Shown piece by piece: positions 43,974-51,695 of a DNA stretch of 64,000 nt. Both the position numbers and the translations under genes were made by a program. How positions within the stretch are numbered: position 1 is the first letter of the stretch; each line of letters starts with the position of its first letter. A model generated the notes under the pieces. The model was not told the DNA's origin, ran no database searches, and saw only the letters and a list, made by a program, of their open reading frames with translations. Where the stretch lies: positions 310,001 through 374,000 of the forward strand of contig NC_017583.1 of NCBI RefSeq assembly GCF_000184345.1, written 5' to 3'. The DNA comes from Spirochaeta thermophila DSM 6578 (lineage in GTDB: Bacteria; Spirochaetota; Spirochaetia; Winmispirales; Winmispiraceae).

Positions 43974-44477
43974 GTGCAGCGTATCATTCGTATCCTCGGG
44001 TTGGTGTTGGGACTGGCGAGCCCCTTTCCCGAGGTGTGGCTTTCGGAGCCCTCTTTCCATGTGGAGGAAGGAGGGCTCTTCGTGAAGGTTCGTGCCTCCG
44101 GGGTGATCAACGATCAGCTCTTCTCGCTCATCGATGCCTATGTCCCTGTGACGGTGGTGACCAGGGTGGAGGTGTGGGTGGACGATCGTCTTGTGAGGCG
44201 GTTTGCCGTCTCCCAGAAGGTGGAGCGCGTGGGGGAGTTCTACGAGGTGGAGGGGGAGGGGCCTCTCGCTCGGGAGAGGGTGGAGGATGTGTTTTCTCTG
44301 TTCAAGGTGAGGGTGCTCGAAGATGTGGAGCGGTACCGGGGGAGGAAGGTCCGGGTGAGGATCTCCCTTGCGCTCTACTCTTCTGTGTTCTCGCCTGTGC
44401 AGGATCTTTGGGGGAACAACCCGGTGACCGAGGGAGAGTGGGTTGTCCCTGAGGGAGGTGATGATGGTGGTGATTGA
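43974..44477 (+). CDS. DUF4390-like exported protein upstream of a sensor kinase
   Basis: A 167 aa protein with an N-terminal signal (IIRILGLVLGLASPFPEVWL). Its layout fits DUF4390: a strand with V-T-R-V-E-V-W, then R-R-F-A-V-S-Q-K, and a C-terminal LYSSVFSPVQDLWGNNP. Start GTG with AAGGAGGG ahead. DUF4390 genes are known to precede NtrY/NtrX-like pairs in some proteobacteria, the same order as here. It ends 73 nt before the kinase, with a small frame in between. Confidence 0.7.
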   Translation: MQRIIRILGLVLGLASPFPEVWLSEPSFHVEEGGLFVKVRASGVINDQLFSLIDAYVPVTVVTRVEVWVDDRLVRRFAVSQKVERVGEFYEVEGEGPLARERVEDVFSLFKVRVLEDVERYRGRKVRVRISLALYSSVFSPVQDLWGNNPVTEGEWVVPEGGDDGGD

Positions 44478-44553
44478 GGTCCGTGAGGTGGTGAATCGAT
44501 ACGGTGAGAAGGAGGCCCTTGCGGGCGTCTTCGTGAGGGGGGATGAGCGGTGA
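44461..44553 (+). CDS. 30-codon frame resembling the start of an Mla-type ABC ATPase
   Basis: ATG 44461 has GGGAGG three bases upstream. The frame overlaps the end of the DUF4390-like gene by 17 nt and the kinase GTG by 4 nt (GTGA). The peptide, with VIEVREVVNRYGEKEALAG, looks like the first 20 residues of a MlaF/MKL-family ABC ATPase, in which E-V-x-x-V-x-x-R-[FY]-G is typical, and then stops. It may be a gene remnant or a coupling leader peptide. Similarity is judged by eye on few residues. Confidence 0.35.
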   Translation: MMVVIEVREVVNRYGEKEALAGVFVRGDER

Positions 44554-45626
44554 GGGGATGGGCGTGGGTGCTGTTGGCGCTGGTGCTCTTCCTCCTCCTC
44601 TGGGTGGTGGCAACGGGGGTGGTGGTGACGGTGTACGATCGGGTGGAGGGTGCGCTCATGTCTTCGATAGAAGGTGTGAAGGGGCGGTTCTCGGATGAGG
44701 ATGCGCGTCTTCTCGGCGGGGTGCTCGAGGGGGTGCGGCTCCTGCAGGAGCGCAGAAGGGTGGAGGTGCTTCGGACGATGTTCGCGGTGCTCGCCGGTGA
44801 GGTGGTGTTGAGTGGGCTTGTGGTCTTCTTCTATGTGGGGAGGGTGCGGGGGCCGGTGTTGGAGCTCGCCCGGCTCATGGAGGAGTTCCGCGGGGGCGAG
44901 GTGCCGGCGGGAGGGGGGGTGTACGAGGTGAGGCGGCTCGTTGCGGCCTATACGGGGATGCTCCGGAGGCTCGAGCGGTACGAGCAGGAGGTGGGGGATC
45001 TGGCGCGGTTCAGGGGCTGGAAGGAGATGGCGCGGGTCTGCGTCCACGAGGTGCGGAACCTCCTCTCGCCGGTCCGTATGGTGGTGGAGCAGGGGCTCTC
45101 CGTAGGGGAGGGGCTCTGCGGGGAGCGGTTGGGGTTCGTGCTCCGCAAGCTGGGCGAGGTGGACGGGGTGCTCGCCCGCCTGCGCGACCTGGCGCACCTG
45201 CCGGAGGCGAGGCCCGGTCGGGTGGTGGTGGGCGAGGTGGTGAGGGAGGTGGTGGGGGAGTTTCCGGGGATGGGGTGCGAGGTGTGTGGGGAGGTGGTGG
45301 TGCGTGCGGATGGGGTGCTCCTCGCCGAGGTGGTGCGCAACCTGTGTGCGAACGCGAGAGATACGGGGGCGCTGGCAGGGGTGAGGGTGTGGAGTGAGGG
45401 GGATGAGGGGGTGGTGGAGGTGTGGGACAGGGGGCCGGGGATCCCGGAGGAGGAGCAGGAGCGGGTCTGGGAGCCGGGGGTGAGCGGAAAGGAGGGGGGG
45501 ATGGGGCTCGGACTGGCGCTGGTGCGGCTCCTGGTGGGGGAGATGGGGGGGAGGGTGGTGATGTGGTCGCGTGTGGGAGAGGGGACGCGGGTGGAGGTGC
45601 GGCTTCCCGGATGGGAGGGGGTATGA
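44550..45626 (+). CDS. NtrY-like sensor histidine kinase
   Basis: A 358 aa membrane kinase. Two transmembrane helices flank a short extracytoplasmic loop (about 5-30 and 78-100), followed by a HAMP-like segment. The phosphoacceptor is in CVHEVRNLLSPVRM, the N-box is VVRNLCANARD, and the G boxes are DRGPGIPEEE and GMGLGLALVRL. Start GTG, translationally coupled to the small frame before it. The stop overlaps the regulator gene (ATGA), so the two are co-expressed. The sensor domain is unusually small. Confidence 0.9.
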   Translation: MRGWAWVLLALVLFLLLWVVATGVVVTVYDRVEGALMSSIEGVKGRFSDEDARLLGGVLEGVRLLQERRRVEVLRTMFAVLAGEVVLSGLVVFFYVGRVRGPVLELARLMEEFRGGEVPAGGGVYEVRRLVAAYTGMLRRLERYEQEVGDLARFRGWKEMARVCVHEVRNLLSPVRMVVEQGLSVGEGLCGERLGFVLRKLGEVDGVLARLRDLAHLPEARPGRVVVGEVVREVVGEFPGMGCEVCGEVVVRADGVLLAEVVRNLCANARDTGALAGVRVWSEGDEGVVEVWDRGPGIPEEEQERVWEPGVSGKEGGMGLGLALVRLLVGEMGGRVVMWSRVGEGTRVEVRLPGWEGV

Positions 45627-46948
45627 CGGTACTGGTGGTGGACGACGAGCGCGACGTGGTGGAGGGGTTCCGCATGGCCTTCCCCGAGTGGGAGGTGAGG
45701 GGGGCCGGGTCGGGCGCGGAGGCCTTGAGGGTGCTGGAGTCCGAGCCCGTGGACCTGGTGTTCCTCGACGTGAGGCTCGGGAGGGAGGACGGGCTTTCCC
45801 TCCTCGGGCGTATGAAGGAGCGCCGGCCGGAGCTTCCGTGTGTGATGATCTCGGCCTATGGCACGGTGGAGCGGGCGGTGGAGGCCCTGCGGCTGGGCGC
45901 GGTGGACTTCCTGGAGAAGCCGCTCTCCTTCGAGAAGGTGAGGATCGTAGCCGAGCGGACCGCGAGCGAGGTCTTCGCCCGAAGGGTGGTGGAACAGGAG
46001 AGGGAGCGGTACGCCCTCCTCGGGGAGTCGGAGGCCGTGCGGGAGGTGCGGCGGCTCATCGAGAAGGCGGCCCGGGTGGAGGTCCCCGTGCTGGTCACCG
46101 GTGAGAGCGGCACGGGGAAGGAGCACGTGGCGCGGCTCGTGCACCTCTCGAGCAGGAGGGCGAGGGGGCCGCTCGTGGCCCTCAACTGTGCTGCGGTCCC
46201 TGCGGATCTCTTCGAGAGCGAGATCTTCGGACACGAGAAGGGGAGCTTCACCGGGGCCGAGAGGCGGCGCAGGGGGAGGATCGAGGAGGCGAGGGGAGGC
46301 ACGCTCTTCCTGGACGAGGTGGGGGAGCTGCCGGCCTCCCAGCAGGCGAAGCTCTTGCGGGTCCTCGAGACCGGGGAGTACTATCCCGTGGGGGCCGAGA
46401 GGCCGCGCAGGGCCGATGTGCGGGTGGTGTGCGCCACAAACAGAGACCTCGAGGCCATGGTGAGGGAAGGGTCGTTCCGCGCAGATCTCTACTACAGATT
46501 GGGGGTCTTGAGGATCCACATTCCCCCACTCAGGGAACGGAGGGAGGATATCCCGCTCCTCGCGCAGGTCTTTCTCAGGCGGGTGTCCGAGGAGCTGGGG
46601 CAGGAGCGGACCTTCTCCCGTGAGGCCCTCTCGGTGCTCATGGAGGGCGAGTATCCGGGCAATGTGCGGGAGCTCCAGCACCTCGTGTGGCGGGCGGCCC
46701 TCCTCTCCGAGGGGCCGGTGATCGGGCCCGAGGTGGTGGGGAAGGTGAGGGATGAGGGGAGGAAGGCCTTCTCGGATGACCTCCTCTTCGCTCCCCGCCC
46801 ACTCGGCGAGGCGCGGAGGGAGTTCGAACGGGCCTACATCGCCTATCACCTCTCGCGGTGTGGGGGGAATGTCTCCAGGACGGCGCGCGAGCTCGGCATG
46901 GCTCCCTCAAACCTCATGAGGAGGATGCGGGAGCTGGGGATGCGTTGA
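45623..46948 (+). CDS. NtrC-family sigma-54-dependent response regulator
   Basis: A 441 aa activator. Receiver 1-115 (VVDDE, phospho-Asp in VFLDVRL, EKPLS); AAA+ domain about 135-370 with GESGTGKEH (Walker A), LFLDEVGE (Walker B) and a sigma-54 contact loop that reads GSFTGA rather than GAFTGA. The C-terminal Fis-type helix-turn-helix is GGNVSRTARELGMAPSNLMRRM. GGGAGGGGGT precedes the ATG. It is paired with the kinase at 44550. Serine at this loop position occurs in some active family members, but Ala is usual. Its targets could include glnA, which has a sigma-54 promoter. Confidence 0.93.
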   Translation: MTVLVVDDERDVVEGFRMAFPEWEVRGAGSGAEALRVLESEPVDLVFLDVRLGREDGLSLLGRMKERRPELPCVMISAYGTVERAVEALRLGAVDFLEKPLSFEKVRIVAERTASEVFARRVVEQERERYALLGESEAVREVRRLIEKAARVEVPVLVTGESGTGKEHVARLVHLSSRRARGPLVALNCAAVPADLFESEIFGHEKGSFTGAERRRRGRIEEARGGTLFLDEVGELPASQQAKLLRVLETGEYYPVGAERPRRADVRVVCATNRDLEAMVREGSFRADLYYRLGVLRIHIPPLRERREDIPLLAQVFLRRVSEELGQERTFSREALSVLMEGEYPGNVRELQHLVWRAALLSEGPVIGPEVVGKVRDEGRKAFSDDLLFAPRPLGEARREFERAYIAYHLSRCGGNVSRTARELGMAPSNLMRRMRELGMR

Positions 46949-46997: not shown

Positions 46998-47972
46998 ATG
47001 CCTCGATTCCGCGTGTTCGTGTGGCTTGTGAGTGTGGGGGTGGGTGGGCTCTTTGCCCTTGACGGCTGGGGCTTCTCGTCCTCTCTTGAGACCTCGTGGT
47101 TCACCGGCGAGGCCCACGAGCTGGTCTACCAGAAGTGGGACGAGGGGGATCACCTCCTCAGCCGGCTCGTGTGGCCGGCGGAAGGCTGGCTCCTCGAGGC
47201 AGAGGCCGGCCTCTCCTGGTGGAGGGTGGGGATCGAGGGCTGGTATGCCTTCCTCGTGGGTGGCCGTGAGCCCGGTGCGTGGATGGAGGACTACGACTAC
47301 ATGAACCTGGGGGATCCCGATCCCACGCACTTTTCCACCCACCCTGTGGAGCTGGGCCCGTACCGCGAGATAGGAGGGGGCCTCTCGTTCCGGATCGTGG
47401 ACCGGAAGACGGTGACCGTCTCATTGGGAGCGGGGTGGCAGTACCTCCACCGATATTGGTCGGCCCGTGACGGTTACTCCCAGTACCCGAGTGGGGTGGG
47501 GGACTCCTATGATCCTTCTTCCGGTACGGGGTGGCCCTACCCCGAGTGGACAGGGGATGAGCCGAAGTCTTCTTTCGACGGCGAGGTCATCACCTATGAG
47601 CAGGAGGTGATGGGGCCGATGCTCCTCTTCCGGTGCGGGATGAGGCCTTTTGCCTGGCTCGGGGTCGATTCTTCGGTGATGTGGTCGCCGTATCCTCTTG
47701 CCGTGACCCTTGATGAACACCTGCTTCGCGATCTTCTCTTCCTCGATCACATGGCAGGGGGTATGCTCCTGGATGTGGAGGGTGAGTTCGAGGTCTTCCT
47801 GTGGAAGGGTCTGTCCCTCTACGGGAGGGGGTGGTACAGGCTCGTCTCCATGGCAAAGGGGGATTCGTACTTCAAGGAAGACGGGACGTGGTACCGGGCT
47901 GCGGACGGGAAGAGCGGTATGGAGAGCACCGAGTGGGGGCTGGGGATGGGGATGCGGGTGATGGTGGAGTGA
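46998..47972 (+). CDS. Omptin-family outer-membrane protease
   Basis: A 324 aa barrel protein with signal MPRFRVFVWLVSVGVGGLFA. Omptin landmarks are visible: HELVYQKWDEGDHLLSRLVW matches the first strands, MEDYDYMN corresponds to the D-x-D-W-M catalytic pair (OmpT D83/D85), and LDEHLLRD corresponds to the D-E-H site (D210/H212). A W-x-R loop and a terminal GLGMGMRVMV strand complete the ten-stranded pattern. All four catalytic residues therefore appear to be kept, so it should cleave peptides or surface proteins on the cell exterior. Known mainly from proteobacteria. Confidence 0.85.
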   Translation: MPRFRVFVWLVSVGVGGLFALDGWGFSSSLETSWFTGEAHELVYQKWDEGDHLLSRLVWPAEGWLLEAEAGLSWWRVGIEGWYAFLVGGREPGAWMEDYDYMNLGDPDPTHFSTHPVELGPYREIGGGLSFRIVDRKTVTVSLGAGWQYLHRYWSARDGYSQYPSGVGDSYDPSSGTGWPYPEWTGDEPKSSFDGEVITYEQEVMGPMLLFRCGMRPFAWLGVDSSVMWSPYPLAVTLDEHLLRDLLFLDHMAGGMLLDVEGEFEVFLWKGLSLYGRGWYRLVSMAKGDSYFKEDGTWYRAADGKSGMESTEWGLGMGMRVMVE

Positions 47973-47974
47973 AG

Positions 47975-49936
47975 CTAGCCCGTGAGTGTGCGGGGGATGC
48001 GGCGGACGTGCTGTATGGTGCGGACCGGGATGTGGAGCGGGGCCTCTTCTCCCTCGGGGATCGCCTCGAGGTAGTGGGAGGCCCCCTTCTTTTTGAGGGC
48101 GAGAGGGCGCACGAGGAGGGGGGTGTGGTCTTTGTGCCCGAGGATGCACACTTCCACCAGGTCGCCTGCGTGGGAGAGGGCTTCTTCTATTACCCTGAGT
48201 TTGCCGTGGTAGTCGAGTCCGTCGGATTCGAGGAGTTCGGTGTCTGCTGTCTCCTCGGTGAGCTGCTCGGGGGTGAGGATGTAGCCTTCCTCGATGCGGG
48301 CCTTGAGGAGGTGGCGCGCCTCTTCCGAGAGTGGGGTGCGTTCCAGGGCCTCGAGGAGGGCGGGCCTGAGGTCGGGGGGTGGGGCGGTGGGGGTTTCCGG
48401 GAGCACGGGTACCACGGGGGGGTCGAGGTGGGTCGGGAGGGGGAGCGGCTCCTCCGAGGGAGGGGTCTCTTCCTCTACGGGACCGAGGAGGCCTATCCCG
48501 GCGTGTTCCAGGAGGGTCTTCCACTCCTCCCACCGTTCCTCCCTGACGAGGAAGATGGTCTCTCCAAGGGTCTCCCACACGCAGGTGGAGAACTGTGGGC
48601 TCTGTCGGACGATCCGGGCGTACTCGGGCTCGAGGATCGCCACGATTCCCCGGAGGTGACGGGCCCGCTCGGCCTCCTCCTGCCAGAGGGTGAGGGTGGC
48701 GGCGACCGGCTGGGGGAGGGGGTGGCCGCTTCCCACGGTGAGGGCGAGGCGGAGCTCGGCTGTCTCCACCCCTGCCTCGAGGCCGCGGCGCAGGGCGGGT
48801 TTGGTGAGCTCGTAGCGGGAGACGGCGTCGTGGCGTATGAGGGAGAGGGCCGCACAGGGGACGAGGAGGTCCGAGAGCACGGCGTGGGGATGTACGATGA
48901 GGTGGCCCGAGGCCTCCACCTTGAACGGAGGGGTCTCCGGGGGGTTGAGGAGTGTGGGGATGTGGGGGGTGAGGGAGAGGGTGGTTTCGTGGGGGACGAG
49001 GAGGCCGAGCGAGGCGAGGTCCTCGATGGGTGGGGGGGTGTGGGGTTGGGTGTGGAGGGTGAGGGCGAGGCGGAGGGCGCGGGTGATGGTGGAGGGGGTG
49101 TAGGTGTGGGTGGGGGGGAGGAGGTCGGGGAGGGCGAGGAGGGCGGCGGCGAGGGGGTGGGGGTCGGCCCCCTCGGGGGTGATGGCCGCAGCCCAGAGGA
49201 GGGGGAGGCGGGTGGAGGGGGGAAGGTCGGCGAGGGTACGGAACCGGGTGAGGAGGGCGGCCGGGGTGGGGGCGGGGATGAGGGAGAGGCGGGTGAGGGC
49301 CCGGACGAGGAGGGGGAGGTGCTCGGGGTGATGGGAGAAGTGGGGGATGCGGGATGCGATACGGGTGCGTGCCCGCGAGGTGGGTATGCCGTCTTTGTGG
49401 TCGAGGAGGGCGGGGTCGTCGGTGAGGAGGGAGAGGAGGGCGCCGAGGAGGGGGTCGGTGAGCCAGGGGTGGGGCGGGGAGGAGGGAGGGGTGGGGCCTT
49501 CGGGGGGGAGGAGGGCCTCGAGCGAGAGGATGTGGGTCTCGAGCAGGGGGCGGAGGGGAGGGGTGAAGCGGATGCGTGGGGGCTCGTCCCCGGTGTCGAG
49601 GTAGACGAGGAGGCGGTCCCTGAGGCGGTGGAGGACGAGGTGGGGTTCTTCCTCCCCCTCTTCCTCCAGGAACGAGGTGAAGACCTCGGGTGGGGGTTCG
49701 CCGAGGGCCGCGATGAGCGAGAGGTGGGCCCTGTCTTGAGGGGTGAGGAGGGCGAGGATCGCCTCCTGTATCCGGGGCGATTCCAGGAAGCGGTAGAGGC
49801 GTTCGACGAGCTGGGGTTTGTGGTAGGGGGTCTCGATCCTGCCGAGGTAGTTGCGTATGAGGCGGAGGAAGTCCCTGTCGGGAAGGGTGAGGAGGTAGGC
49901 GGTGAGGCGGTCTATGTCAGCTCGTCTTCGCTCCAT
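47975..49936 (-). CDS. Helicase-associated protein (XPB/Ssl2 N-terminal-like partner)
   Basis: A 653 aa protein with no helicase motifs of its own. The N-terminal half is a Leu-rich helical repeat (LLTLPDRDFLRLIRNYLGRIETPYHK), and the middle and end resemble the XPB/Ssl2 N-terminal/helicase_C_3-like domain (FKVEASGHLIVHPHAVLSD; SDGLDYHGKLRVIEEAL). Leu, Pro and cytosine dominate. It overlaps the end of the XPB-like helicase gene by 25 nt, so the two are co-translated, and it probably acts as the helicase's partner subunit. Confidence 0.8.
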   Translation of the reverse strand: MERRRADIDRLTAYLLTLPDRDFLRLIRNYLGRIETPYHKPQLVERLYRFLESPRIQEAILALLTPQDRAHLSLIAALGEPPPEVFTSFLEEEGEEEPHLVLHRLRDRLLVYLDTGDEPPRIRFTPPLRPLLETHILSLEALLPPEGPTPPSSPPHPWLTDPLLGALLSLLTDDPALLDHKDGIPTSRARTRIASRIPHFSHHPEHLPLLVRALTRLSLIPAPTPAALLTRFRTLADLPPSTRLPLLWAAAITPEGADPHPLAAALLALPDLLPPTHTYTPSTITRALRLALTLHTQPHTPPPIEDLASLGLLVPHETTLSLTPHIPTLLNPPETPPFKVEASGHLIVHPHAVLSDLLVPCAALSLIRHDAVSRYELTKPALRRGLEAGVETAELRLALTVGSGHPLPQPVAATLTLWQEEAERARHLRGIVAILEPEYARIVRQSPQFSTCVWETLGETIFLVREERWEEWKTLLEHAGIGLLGPVEEETPPSEEPLPLPTHLDPPVVPVLPETPTAPPPDLRPALLEALERTPLSEEARHLLKARIEEGYILTPEQLTEETADTELLESDGLDYHGKLRVIEEALSHAGDLVEVCILGHKDHTPLLVRPLALKKKGASHYLEAIPEGEEAPLHIPVRTIQHVRRIPRTLTG

Positions 49937-51603
49937 AGCTCCATCTGGTAGCGGTAGCCCTGTTCGGTGAGGAATCGCTGCCGGTTGGCGGCGAAGTGTT
50001 CTTCCAGTGTATCACGCGTCACAATCGTATAGAAGTAGGCGTGGTGGTGTTTCGGTCTGAGGATGCGGCCGAGGCGCTGGGCCTCCTCCTGGCGGGATCC
50101 GAAGGTGCCGGAGACCTGAATGGCGACCGCGGCGTCGGGGAGGTCGATGGAGAAGTTGGCGACGCGGGAGACTACGAGGCGCGTGATGCGGCCTTCCTTG
50201 AACTCGCGGTAGAGGCGTTCCCGTTCCCTGTTGGGGGTACGGCCGGTGATGAGGGGAAGGCCGAGGGTGCGGGCGATGCGTTCAAGCTGGTTAAGGTACT
50301 GGCCTATGATGAGGGTGGGAAGGTCTGCGTGTCGCTCGAGGAGCGCGGCCACGACGCGGTCCTTGAGGGGGTTGGTGCTCGCGATGGTGTGCTTCTTCCG
50401 CTGGTCTGCGGCGATGTAGGCGAGTCGGAGGTCCTCGGGGAGGGGTATGCGGATCTCGTAGCAGAGGGCCTCGGCGATCCAGCCCTGGGCCTCCACGTCT
50501 TTCCAGGGGATGTCGTAGCGCTTGGGTCCCACGAGGGCGAAGAGGTGGCGTTCCTTGCCGTCTTCGCGCACAAGGGTGGCGGTGAGGCCGCAGCGGCGTT
50601 TCGCCTGGAGTTCCGCGGTGATGCGGAAGACCGGGGCGGGGAGGAGGTGGACTTCGTCGTAGATGATGAGGCCCCAGTTGCGGGCGAGGAAGAGGTCGAA
50701 GTGGGGGTAGTACTCCTGGGTGTGGTCGGGTCGCCAGGTGAGGATGTGGTAGGTGGCGACGGTGACGGGTTTTATGTCCTTGGACTCGCCGGTGTACTCG
50801 GCGATCTGGTCTTCGGTGAGGGTGGTCTTGTCGAGGATCTCGTCGATCCACTGGTGGGCGGCGGCGACGTTGGGGGTGAGGATGAGGGTGCTCGTCCGGT
50901 AGTGGGCCATGAGGGCGAGGCCCACCACGGTCTTGCCTGCGCCGCAGGGCATGACGATGGTGCCGTAGCCGGTGCCGGGTCCGTCGTCGCCGGTGAAGGC
51001 CTTGACCGCGGCTTCCTGGTAGGGGCGGAGGGCGAAGGGGCGGCTGGAGCGGGTGGTGGTGCGGAGCATGAGGGGGAGGGGTTCGCCTTCCTGGAGGGGG
51101 ACGAGGTCGGTGACGGGGTAGCCGAGGTCGATGAGGAGCTGCTTGATGGTGCCGCGGTGGATGAGGGGCACGTAGAGGGCGTCGTCTCGGGGTGGGAGGT
51201 CGGGTGTGGAGGGTTCGAGGAGGCGGGCGAGCTGGCGGTAGGAGAGGAGTTCCCGGCGGCTCGCAGGGGGGCGGATGCTGAGGAGGAGGGTGTGGGGTGA
51301 GGGGGTGGGGAGGAGGGTGAGGGTGCCGGCGCGTTCGAGGGTGTGGCGGATAGTGTCGAGGAGGGTGGGGGGCACGGGGTAGCGGGCGTAGCGGGAGAGG
51401 CGCTCGGCGATCTGGTCGTAGGTGAGGCCTGCAGAGGCGGCGTTCCAGAGGGAGATGGGGGTGATGCGGTAGGTGTGGATGTACTCTGGGGAGGTGAGGA
51501 GCTCAGTGAAGGGGGTGATGGCGTTCCGGGCCTCGTCGGCCTCGGGATGCGAGACTTCGAGGAGGATGGTGCCGTCGCTCTGTACGATGAATGGGCCGAG
51601 CAT
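49912..51603 (-). CDS. XPB/Ssl2-like DNA repair helicase
   Basis: SF2 helicase of 563 aa, bacterial XPB. An N-terminal damage-recognition-like domain (QSDGTILLEVSHPEADEARN) precedes RecA1 with ALRPYQEAA (Q-motif), MPCGAGKTVVG (Walker A), IIYDEVHLLPA (DEVH) and the RED motif TATLVREDGKE. RecA2 holds ITGRTPNRERERLYREF and QEEAQRLGRILRPK (motif VI). The start at 51603 lies seven bases after a TACCCT box with TTGCCC upstream and no ribosome site; 25 upstream codons were excluded. Similar XPBs occur in Mycobacterium and thermophiles. Role in repair or transcription inferred. Confidence 0.94.
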   Translation of the reverse strand: MLGPFIVQSDGTILLEVSHPEADEARNAITPFTELLTSPEYIHTYRITPISLWNAASAGLTYDQIAERLSRYARYPVPPTLLDTIRHTLERAGTLTLLPTPSPHTLLLSIRPPASRRELLSYRQLARLLEPSTPDLPPRDDALYVPLIHRGTIKQLLIDLGYPVTDLVPLQEGEPLPLMLRTTTRSSRPFALRPYQEAAVKAFTGDDGPGTGYGTIVMPCGAGKTVVGLALMAHYRTSTLILTPNVAAAHQWIDEILDKTTLTEDQIAEYTGESKDIKPVTVATYHILTWRPDHTQEYYPHFDLFLARNWGLIIYDEVHLLPAPVFRITAELQAKRRCGLTATLVREDGKERHLFALVGPKRYDIPWKDVEAQGWIAEALCYEIRIPLPEDLRLAYIAADQRKKHTIASTNPLKDRVVAALLERHADLPTLIIGQYLNQLERIARTLGLPLITGRTPNRERERLYREFKEGRITRLVVSRVANFSIDLPDAAVAIQVSGTFGSRQEEAQRLGRILRPKHHHAYFYTIVTRDTLEEHFAANRQRFLTEQGYRYQMELWSEDELT

Positions 51604-51610
51604 GGGGGTA

Positions 51611-51640
51611 AGGGTAGCGCAGGGTGGTGGAGGCGGGCAA
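51611..51640 (-). promoter_or_regulatory. Leaderless-type promoter of the XPB-like helicase
   Basis: Minus strand TTGCCC (51635-51640), 18 nt, TACCCT (51611-51616), seven bases before the ATG. The region is G/C-biased, so the boxes are weaker than elsewhere. Confidence 0.45.
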
Positions 51641-51695
51641 GGGGGATGGGGTTGCACGGGGGGTGGGGGGTGGGGCATGATGGGGGTGGGAGGAG

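Follow-up and report, generated by a model that had tools for sequence, protein, structure and literature searches.

A probably LPS-independent omptin with a changed substrate pocket in a spirochaete

Omptins are usually treated as LPS-activated proteases of enteric bacteria, and in 2011 their catalytic residues, acidic pocket and LPS site were called conserved across the family (PMC3048539). In OmpT numbering, E27 and D208 are given as the acids of the S1 site and D97 as that of the S1' site, behind the dibasic specificity, and activity was lost whenever one of the four catalytic sites was changed (PMC11410778). The putative LPS residues of OmpT are Y134, E136, R138, R175 and K226; OmpT mutated in this motif was still active, weakly so without LPS and more strongly once LPS was added, from which the authors took the motif as not critical and LPS as still acting (PMC7356225). 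For Pla, R138E, alone or combined with R171E, led to a loss of plasminogen activation and R171E to its reduction, and Pla refolded with lipooligosaccharide gained its active shape (PMC7696990). Published views on the LPS need of omptins diverge. That Borrelia and Treponema are devoid of lipid A enzymes is already known (PMC3087551). The class of the host studied here lends itself to asking, as a natural experiment, whether LPS belongs to the enzyme as such or only to one of its branches. Titles and abstracts pairing "omptin" with "spirochaet" or "Treponema" yielded no study of a spirochaete omptin, and in a search for LPS-free omptin activity the word omptin was absent among the matches listed. 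Here, we describe P0001, probably a working omptin that does without LPS, has an altered specificity and may be induced by its neighbours.

The window, i.e. the whole stretch of DNA analysed (64,000 nucleotides), encodes the omptin-family, predicted outer-membrane protease P0001 (46998..47972, + strand, ATG to TGA, 324 aa), a reading frame claimed in a preliminary description of this DNA and reproduced here. Its length is no evidence for a gene, because 20 base shuffles of the whole window, at 63% GC, produced open frames as long as 390 codons. The ortholog in a genome of the same genus (G006) differs at 30 of the 324 residues, with a dN/dS of 0.29 (NG86) or 0.17 (YN00), so that the gene is under purifying selection; this and its homology mark it as a real gene. 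A Pfam profile search matched P0001 to Omptin (PF01278) with E=2.7e-16; the score of 59.9 bits exceeds the cut-off of 22.6, and residues 28-319 align with positions 7-279 of 283, nearly the full profile. The omptin identity proposed earlier stood up to this HMM check. The two best NCBIfam models, both of omptins, remained far under their cut-offs (30.2 bits vs 580 and 17.8 vs 467), and the three sequence matches in the PDB were all Pla chains (E 8.7e-5 to 3.7e-4).

The fold was modelled with AlphaFold from an alignment of seven sequences, P0001 and six related proteins from other contigs, giving a pLDDT of 87.4 and a pTM of 0.83. The first 11 rows of a Foldseek search of the PDB with this model were all omptins, and VIA-align superposed it on OmpT (1i78_B, Z 31.4, 279 aligned residues, rmsd 1.9) and Pla (2x4m_A, Z 31.5). 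A different barrel family, named beforehand as the outcome that would speak against an omptin, was not what this comparison returned: OmpT and Pla came out best, and the next barrel, the first non-omptin among the matches listed, was OpcA with Z 19.9. By profile, predicted fold and catalytic residues, P0001 is a genuine Omptin (PF01278) member. It belongs to a known family whose Pfam profile already recognises spirochaete omptins; what varies within that family is the LPS-free host class, the changed pocket and, in the host's own family only, a linked regulator. A probable signal peptide covers residues 1 to about 21 (46998..47060, + strand; assigned by eye, with a helix at 2-20 in the model), and an Omp85 gene was found in the host genome by profile search. 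From this signal-like N terminus, the barrel and the Omp85 gene, we infer that P0001 is located in the outer membrane. The last residues of the barrel are VMVE (C terminus, window 47949-47969), with no aromatic residue at the end; of the 97 omptins from class members, 34 end in F, 5 in W and 3 in Y. Viral contigs, scanned once with P0001, contained no relative. Four of five named relatives from genome contigs were spirochaetes, as expected from the probable spirochaete origin first suggested for this DNA.

The host genome (one contig, 2,560,222 bases) was searched with profiles for the lipid A pathway. LpxC, LpxB, LpxD and LptD had no match in it, nor did PF04413 and PF13720, which we take to be the Kdo transferase and the LpxA C-terminal domain, respectively. 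The LpxK profile gave a single match, which at 12 bits stays below the cut-off of 27; in control genomes it gave some match in 12 of 14 and one over the cut-off in 3. Judged by gene content, with no lipid A pathway family above cut-off, the host does not appear to make LPS, in agreement with the preliminary description, which had held that it lacks typical LPS. The same picture emerged for its relatives. LpxC was found in 110 of the 392 genomes of a phylum sample, the positives listed being all outside the host's class; LpxB gave 122 rows, 7 of them under cut-off, and the rows listed also fell outside the class. Kdo transferase (PF04413) was found in none of 394 genomes sampled from the class. 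Four genomes of a single family (G073, G079, G099 and G119, family code f52) had LpxB above cut-off and no LpxC match.

The same description had implied that an omptin is an oddity in a spirochaete, which did not hold: omptins are common there, occurring in 125 of 394 genomes, about a third, in a sample of the host's class (equal in size to that used for Kdo transferase and sharing genomes with it) and in 119 of 392 in the phylum sample, 97 of these in the host's class and 22 outside. LpxC was present in 7 of these 119 genomes and had no match in 112. Expressed the other way, omptin was found in 7/110 LpxC-positive vs 112/282 LpxC-negative genomes (Fisher p about 4e-12, a value not readable as an effect because the test ignores kinship), and five families of the phylum sample hold both. 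Because about a third of the class genomes carry an omptin and the class seems incapable of making LPS, the omptin family probably works without LPS in the host's class. Some of the genes found had an unusual arrangement. In Treponema sp. RUI470 (L143:3335-4825) the omptin occupies residues 206-451 of 497 and is preceded by about 200 residues with no Pfam match; L144:948-2935 is a tandem pair of omptin genes with a stop/start overlap, the first scoring only 26 bits; and an omptin of 176.6 bits (L145:765-1739) lies on a contig labelled Verrucomicrobia bacterium UBA1418, for which mis-binning is possible.

For a survey of residues, one protein per genome from the 119 spirochaete genomes (the 97 of the host's class and the 22 others) was aligned with seven proteobacterial controls. 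The putative LPS motif is lost in P0001: W147, Y149 and H151 stand at OmpT Y134, E136 and R138 (47436..47450, + strand), and E203 at R175 reverses the charge (47604..47606, + strand), so that the five positions, K226 included, read W, Y, H, E and A. None of the five is kept in 70 of the 119 spirochaete omptins, one in 45 and two in 4. Within the class, positions 138, 175 and 226 carry no basic residue in 61 proteins, one in 32, two in 4 and three in 0, and the E136 position is aromatic in 84 of 97 (Y 68, F 12, W 4). Among the controls, OmpT and the E. fergusonii protein have three basic residues at these positions, Kop two and OmpP one, and the two Rhizobium proteins and that of Chelatococcus have none. 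Likewise, of the 7 spirochaete omptins from genomes with LpxC, 6 retain one basic residue of the motif or none. Loss of the motif is not by itself LPS independence, because omptins of LPS-making hosts vary in it too; the case for independence rests on the missing pathway and not on the motif.

These residues bear on the view taken in the preliminary description, in which the omptin is active and another spirochaete surface lipid replaces LPS as its activator. We consider this rather unlikely, though it is the best of the alternatives. In its favour, Pla takes its active shape when refolded with lipooligosaccharide (PMC7696990), and the aromatic residue that the class has at OmpT E136 could mark a different contact with lipid or membrane. 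Against it, the class has no conserved basic cluster at 138/175/226, and the motif of OmpT itself is reported as not critical (PMC7356225). The absence of any need for an activating lipid fits the data as well as does another lipid, and LPS-independent catalysis by P0001 remains our preferred reading.

The catalytic residues are retained. D98 and D100 of P0001 align with OmpT D83 and D85 (47289..47297, + strand), and D239 and H241 with D210 and H212 (47712..47720, + strand), the latter two being present in 97/97 class members; the D-x-D and D-E-H motifs pointed out earlier as catalytic hence coincide with the OmpT quartet. OmpT S99 is matched by S113. The quartet is complete in 114 of the 119 spirochaete omptins and in 94 of the 97 from the host's class. 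Of the five exceptions, two (G305 and G032) are short reading frames with gaps, and three (G252, G173 and G150) have Asn at the D83 position and keep the other three catalytic residues. The latter might suggest that P0001 is a barrel that has given up catalysis to serve as an adhesin or structural protein, as might the similar barrel of the adhesin OpcA. This appears very unlikely for a protein that retains the whole quartet together with E27 and S99, D210 and H212 being kept in 119 of 119 spirochaete omptins aligned. P0001 is likely to be catalytically competent without LPS.

The substrate pocket, on the other hand, differs from that of OmpT. E41 of P0001 corresponds to the S1 acid E27 (47118..47120, + strand), which is E in 92/97 class members, whereas the S1' acid D97 is replaced by H111 (47328..47330, + strand) and the S1 acid D208 by T237 (47706..47708, + strand). 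The E27/D208/D97 pocket thus reads E, T and H in P0001, unlike that of dibasic omptins of the OmpT/Pla type. Of the 97 proteins from the host's class, 92 have retained E27 and 94 S99, but no more than 11 have D208 and 7 D97. A pocket with an acid at each of the three positions occurs in 1/97 class members and 5/7 controls, and in 0/22 other spirochaetes, many of whose rows have a gap at the E27 position. At the OmpT S223 position, presumably part of the substrate site, D or E is found in 94/97 class members and D in 6/22 other spirochaetes; four of the seven controls have D or E there, and OmpT, OmpP and the E. fergusonii protein have S. Neither S223R nor Ser223 was mentioned among the literature matches listed. 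A pattern D.H..R(2-4)[FY].D, considered as a class signature, was rejected because in its strict form it fits only 44 of 97 members. With H in place of D97 and T in place of D208, only one of the three pocket acids is left, from which we infer that P0001 does not have the strict dibasic specificity of OmpT.

The omptin gene closes a string of genes on the same strand. This string opens with a histidine kinase, probably membrane-bound as judged by eye (44550..45626, + strand; HATPase_c, E=9.5e-20), followed by an NtrC-type sigma-54 response regulator with Response_reg, Sigma54_activat and HTH_8 domains (45623..46948, + strand), whose chosen ATG overlaps the kinase stop and which is separated from the omptin ATG by 49 bp. 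A convergent neighbour with a Helicase_C_3 match under cut-off (47975..49936, - strand) bounds the string downstream; the segment at window 47975-51678 on the same - strand comprises this neighbour and an XPB/RAD25-like helicase gene. Upstream, the ORF at 43974-44477 was not retained as a member of the string: it is not conserved in G006, where the alignment begins at about window 44532. Two further genomes, G006 and, from another genus, G138, have kinase, regulator and omptin in this order. Over 330 aa the kinase shares 97.6% identity with that of G006, and over 256 aa 52% with that of G138. Kinase and regulator of G138 share 52-54% identity with those of the window over the aligned parts, and its omptin 37-38%; its regulator-omptin gap is about 220 bp.

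RpoN was found in the host genome. A scan of the window with a sigma-54 consensus gave 30 matches vs 34.4 expected, none of them in the 49-bp gap, and a scan for sigma-70-like sites and terminators gave nothing over chance. Outside the host's family, no kinase/regulator pair directly adjoining an omptin was found. Kinase and regulator genes (named by eye) near the omptins of genus g103, which belongs to another class, were set aside as independent support because no regulator directly adjoins the omptin there; where the maps are clearest, a uracil-DNA glycosylase gene (also named by eye) lies between the two. Omptin neighbours differ from clade to clade: in 40 genomes of 6 genera (g6 and five others) a pseudouridine-synthase-like gene, identified by eye, lies upstream on the same strand, in 38 of the 40 cases within 300 bp. 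Regulation of the omptin by the kinase/sigma-54 regulator pair is plausible for the host's family only.

To place these proteins, a quick tree of 129 omptin rows was built; it is unrooted with a thin outgroup and many long branches, resolution is lacking at 49 of its 126 inner branches, and the host's own family contributes three rows, two of them with a deviant composition. One branch with 99% SH-aLRT support unites the seven proteobacterial rows with the Verrucomicrobia-labelled contig and three spirochaete rows, the proteobacterial rows alone having 65% support, and the three own-family rows, P0001 included, form a separate 99% branch among spirochaete rows. A recent horizontal import of P0001 from proteobacteria, which could be thought of for a family described as spread through horizontal transfer (PMC3048539), is extremely improbable given these different 99% branches, a gene GC (63.1%) equal to that of the window (63.0%) and the identical gene order in the second genus, G138. 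The tree suggests, and only suggests, that enteric omptins are nested among spirochaete omptins, because it is unrooted with a thin outgroup and with long and unresolved branches. As a tentative view, to which we give somewhat less than an even chance, omptin diversity may be greatest in LPS-free spirochaetes, the LPS-dependent dibasic omptins of enteric bacteria being one derived branch; catalysis in the class would be LPS-free and its pocket rebuilt, with E27 kept, D97 and D208 lost and an acid at 223.

Taken together, these data are best accommodated by an omptin acting without LPS. Following the mechanism published for OmpT, P0001 would form a ten-stranded outer-membrane barrel in which an Asp-Asp and an Asp-His pair at the mouth activate water and cut exposed peptides. 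It would cleave proteins at the cell surface with no LPS present, given that the catalytic quartet is maintained in its class and no Kdo transferase was found there, and its cleavage would lack the strict dibasic preference of OmpT. As the last gene of its string, the omptin might be switched on by a signal at the surface, possibly peptides that are cationic or misfolded, which the induced enzyme would then remove; this is the weakest step of the proposal. For mechanistic studies, P0001 may provide an omptin that is free of LPS and possibly stable to heat.

The closest described systems can be compared with P0001 on this basis. OmpT of Escherichia coli K-12 (PDB 1i78) shares its fold (Z 31.4), catalytic quartet, E27 and S99; however, only 55 of 301 aligned residues are identical, P0001 has other residues at D97, at D208 and at each of the five putative LPS positions, and the P0001 host has no detected lipid A pathway. 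Pla (PDB 2x4m, 2x55 and 4dcb) is as similar in fold (Z up to 31.5), with the catalytic D-x-D aligned, but its LPS arginines 138 and 171 correspond to H and E in P0001 (register via the OmpT alignment). The P0001 host also differs from that of Pla in being probably a hot-spring organism; strain 6192 was grown at 65 C (PMC5064287). The rhizobial and Chelatococcus omptins (L137, L140 and L138) likewise keep the catalytic residues and have no basic LPS-motif residues, but they retain two or three pocket acids vs one in P0001. Their hosts are alphaproteobacteria that presumably have LPS. The omptins of the class at large, those of Treponema included (97 genomes), have for the most part lost the same pocket and LPS-motif residues as P0001 and differ in their gene neighbours, such as the pseudouridine-synthase-like gene.
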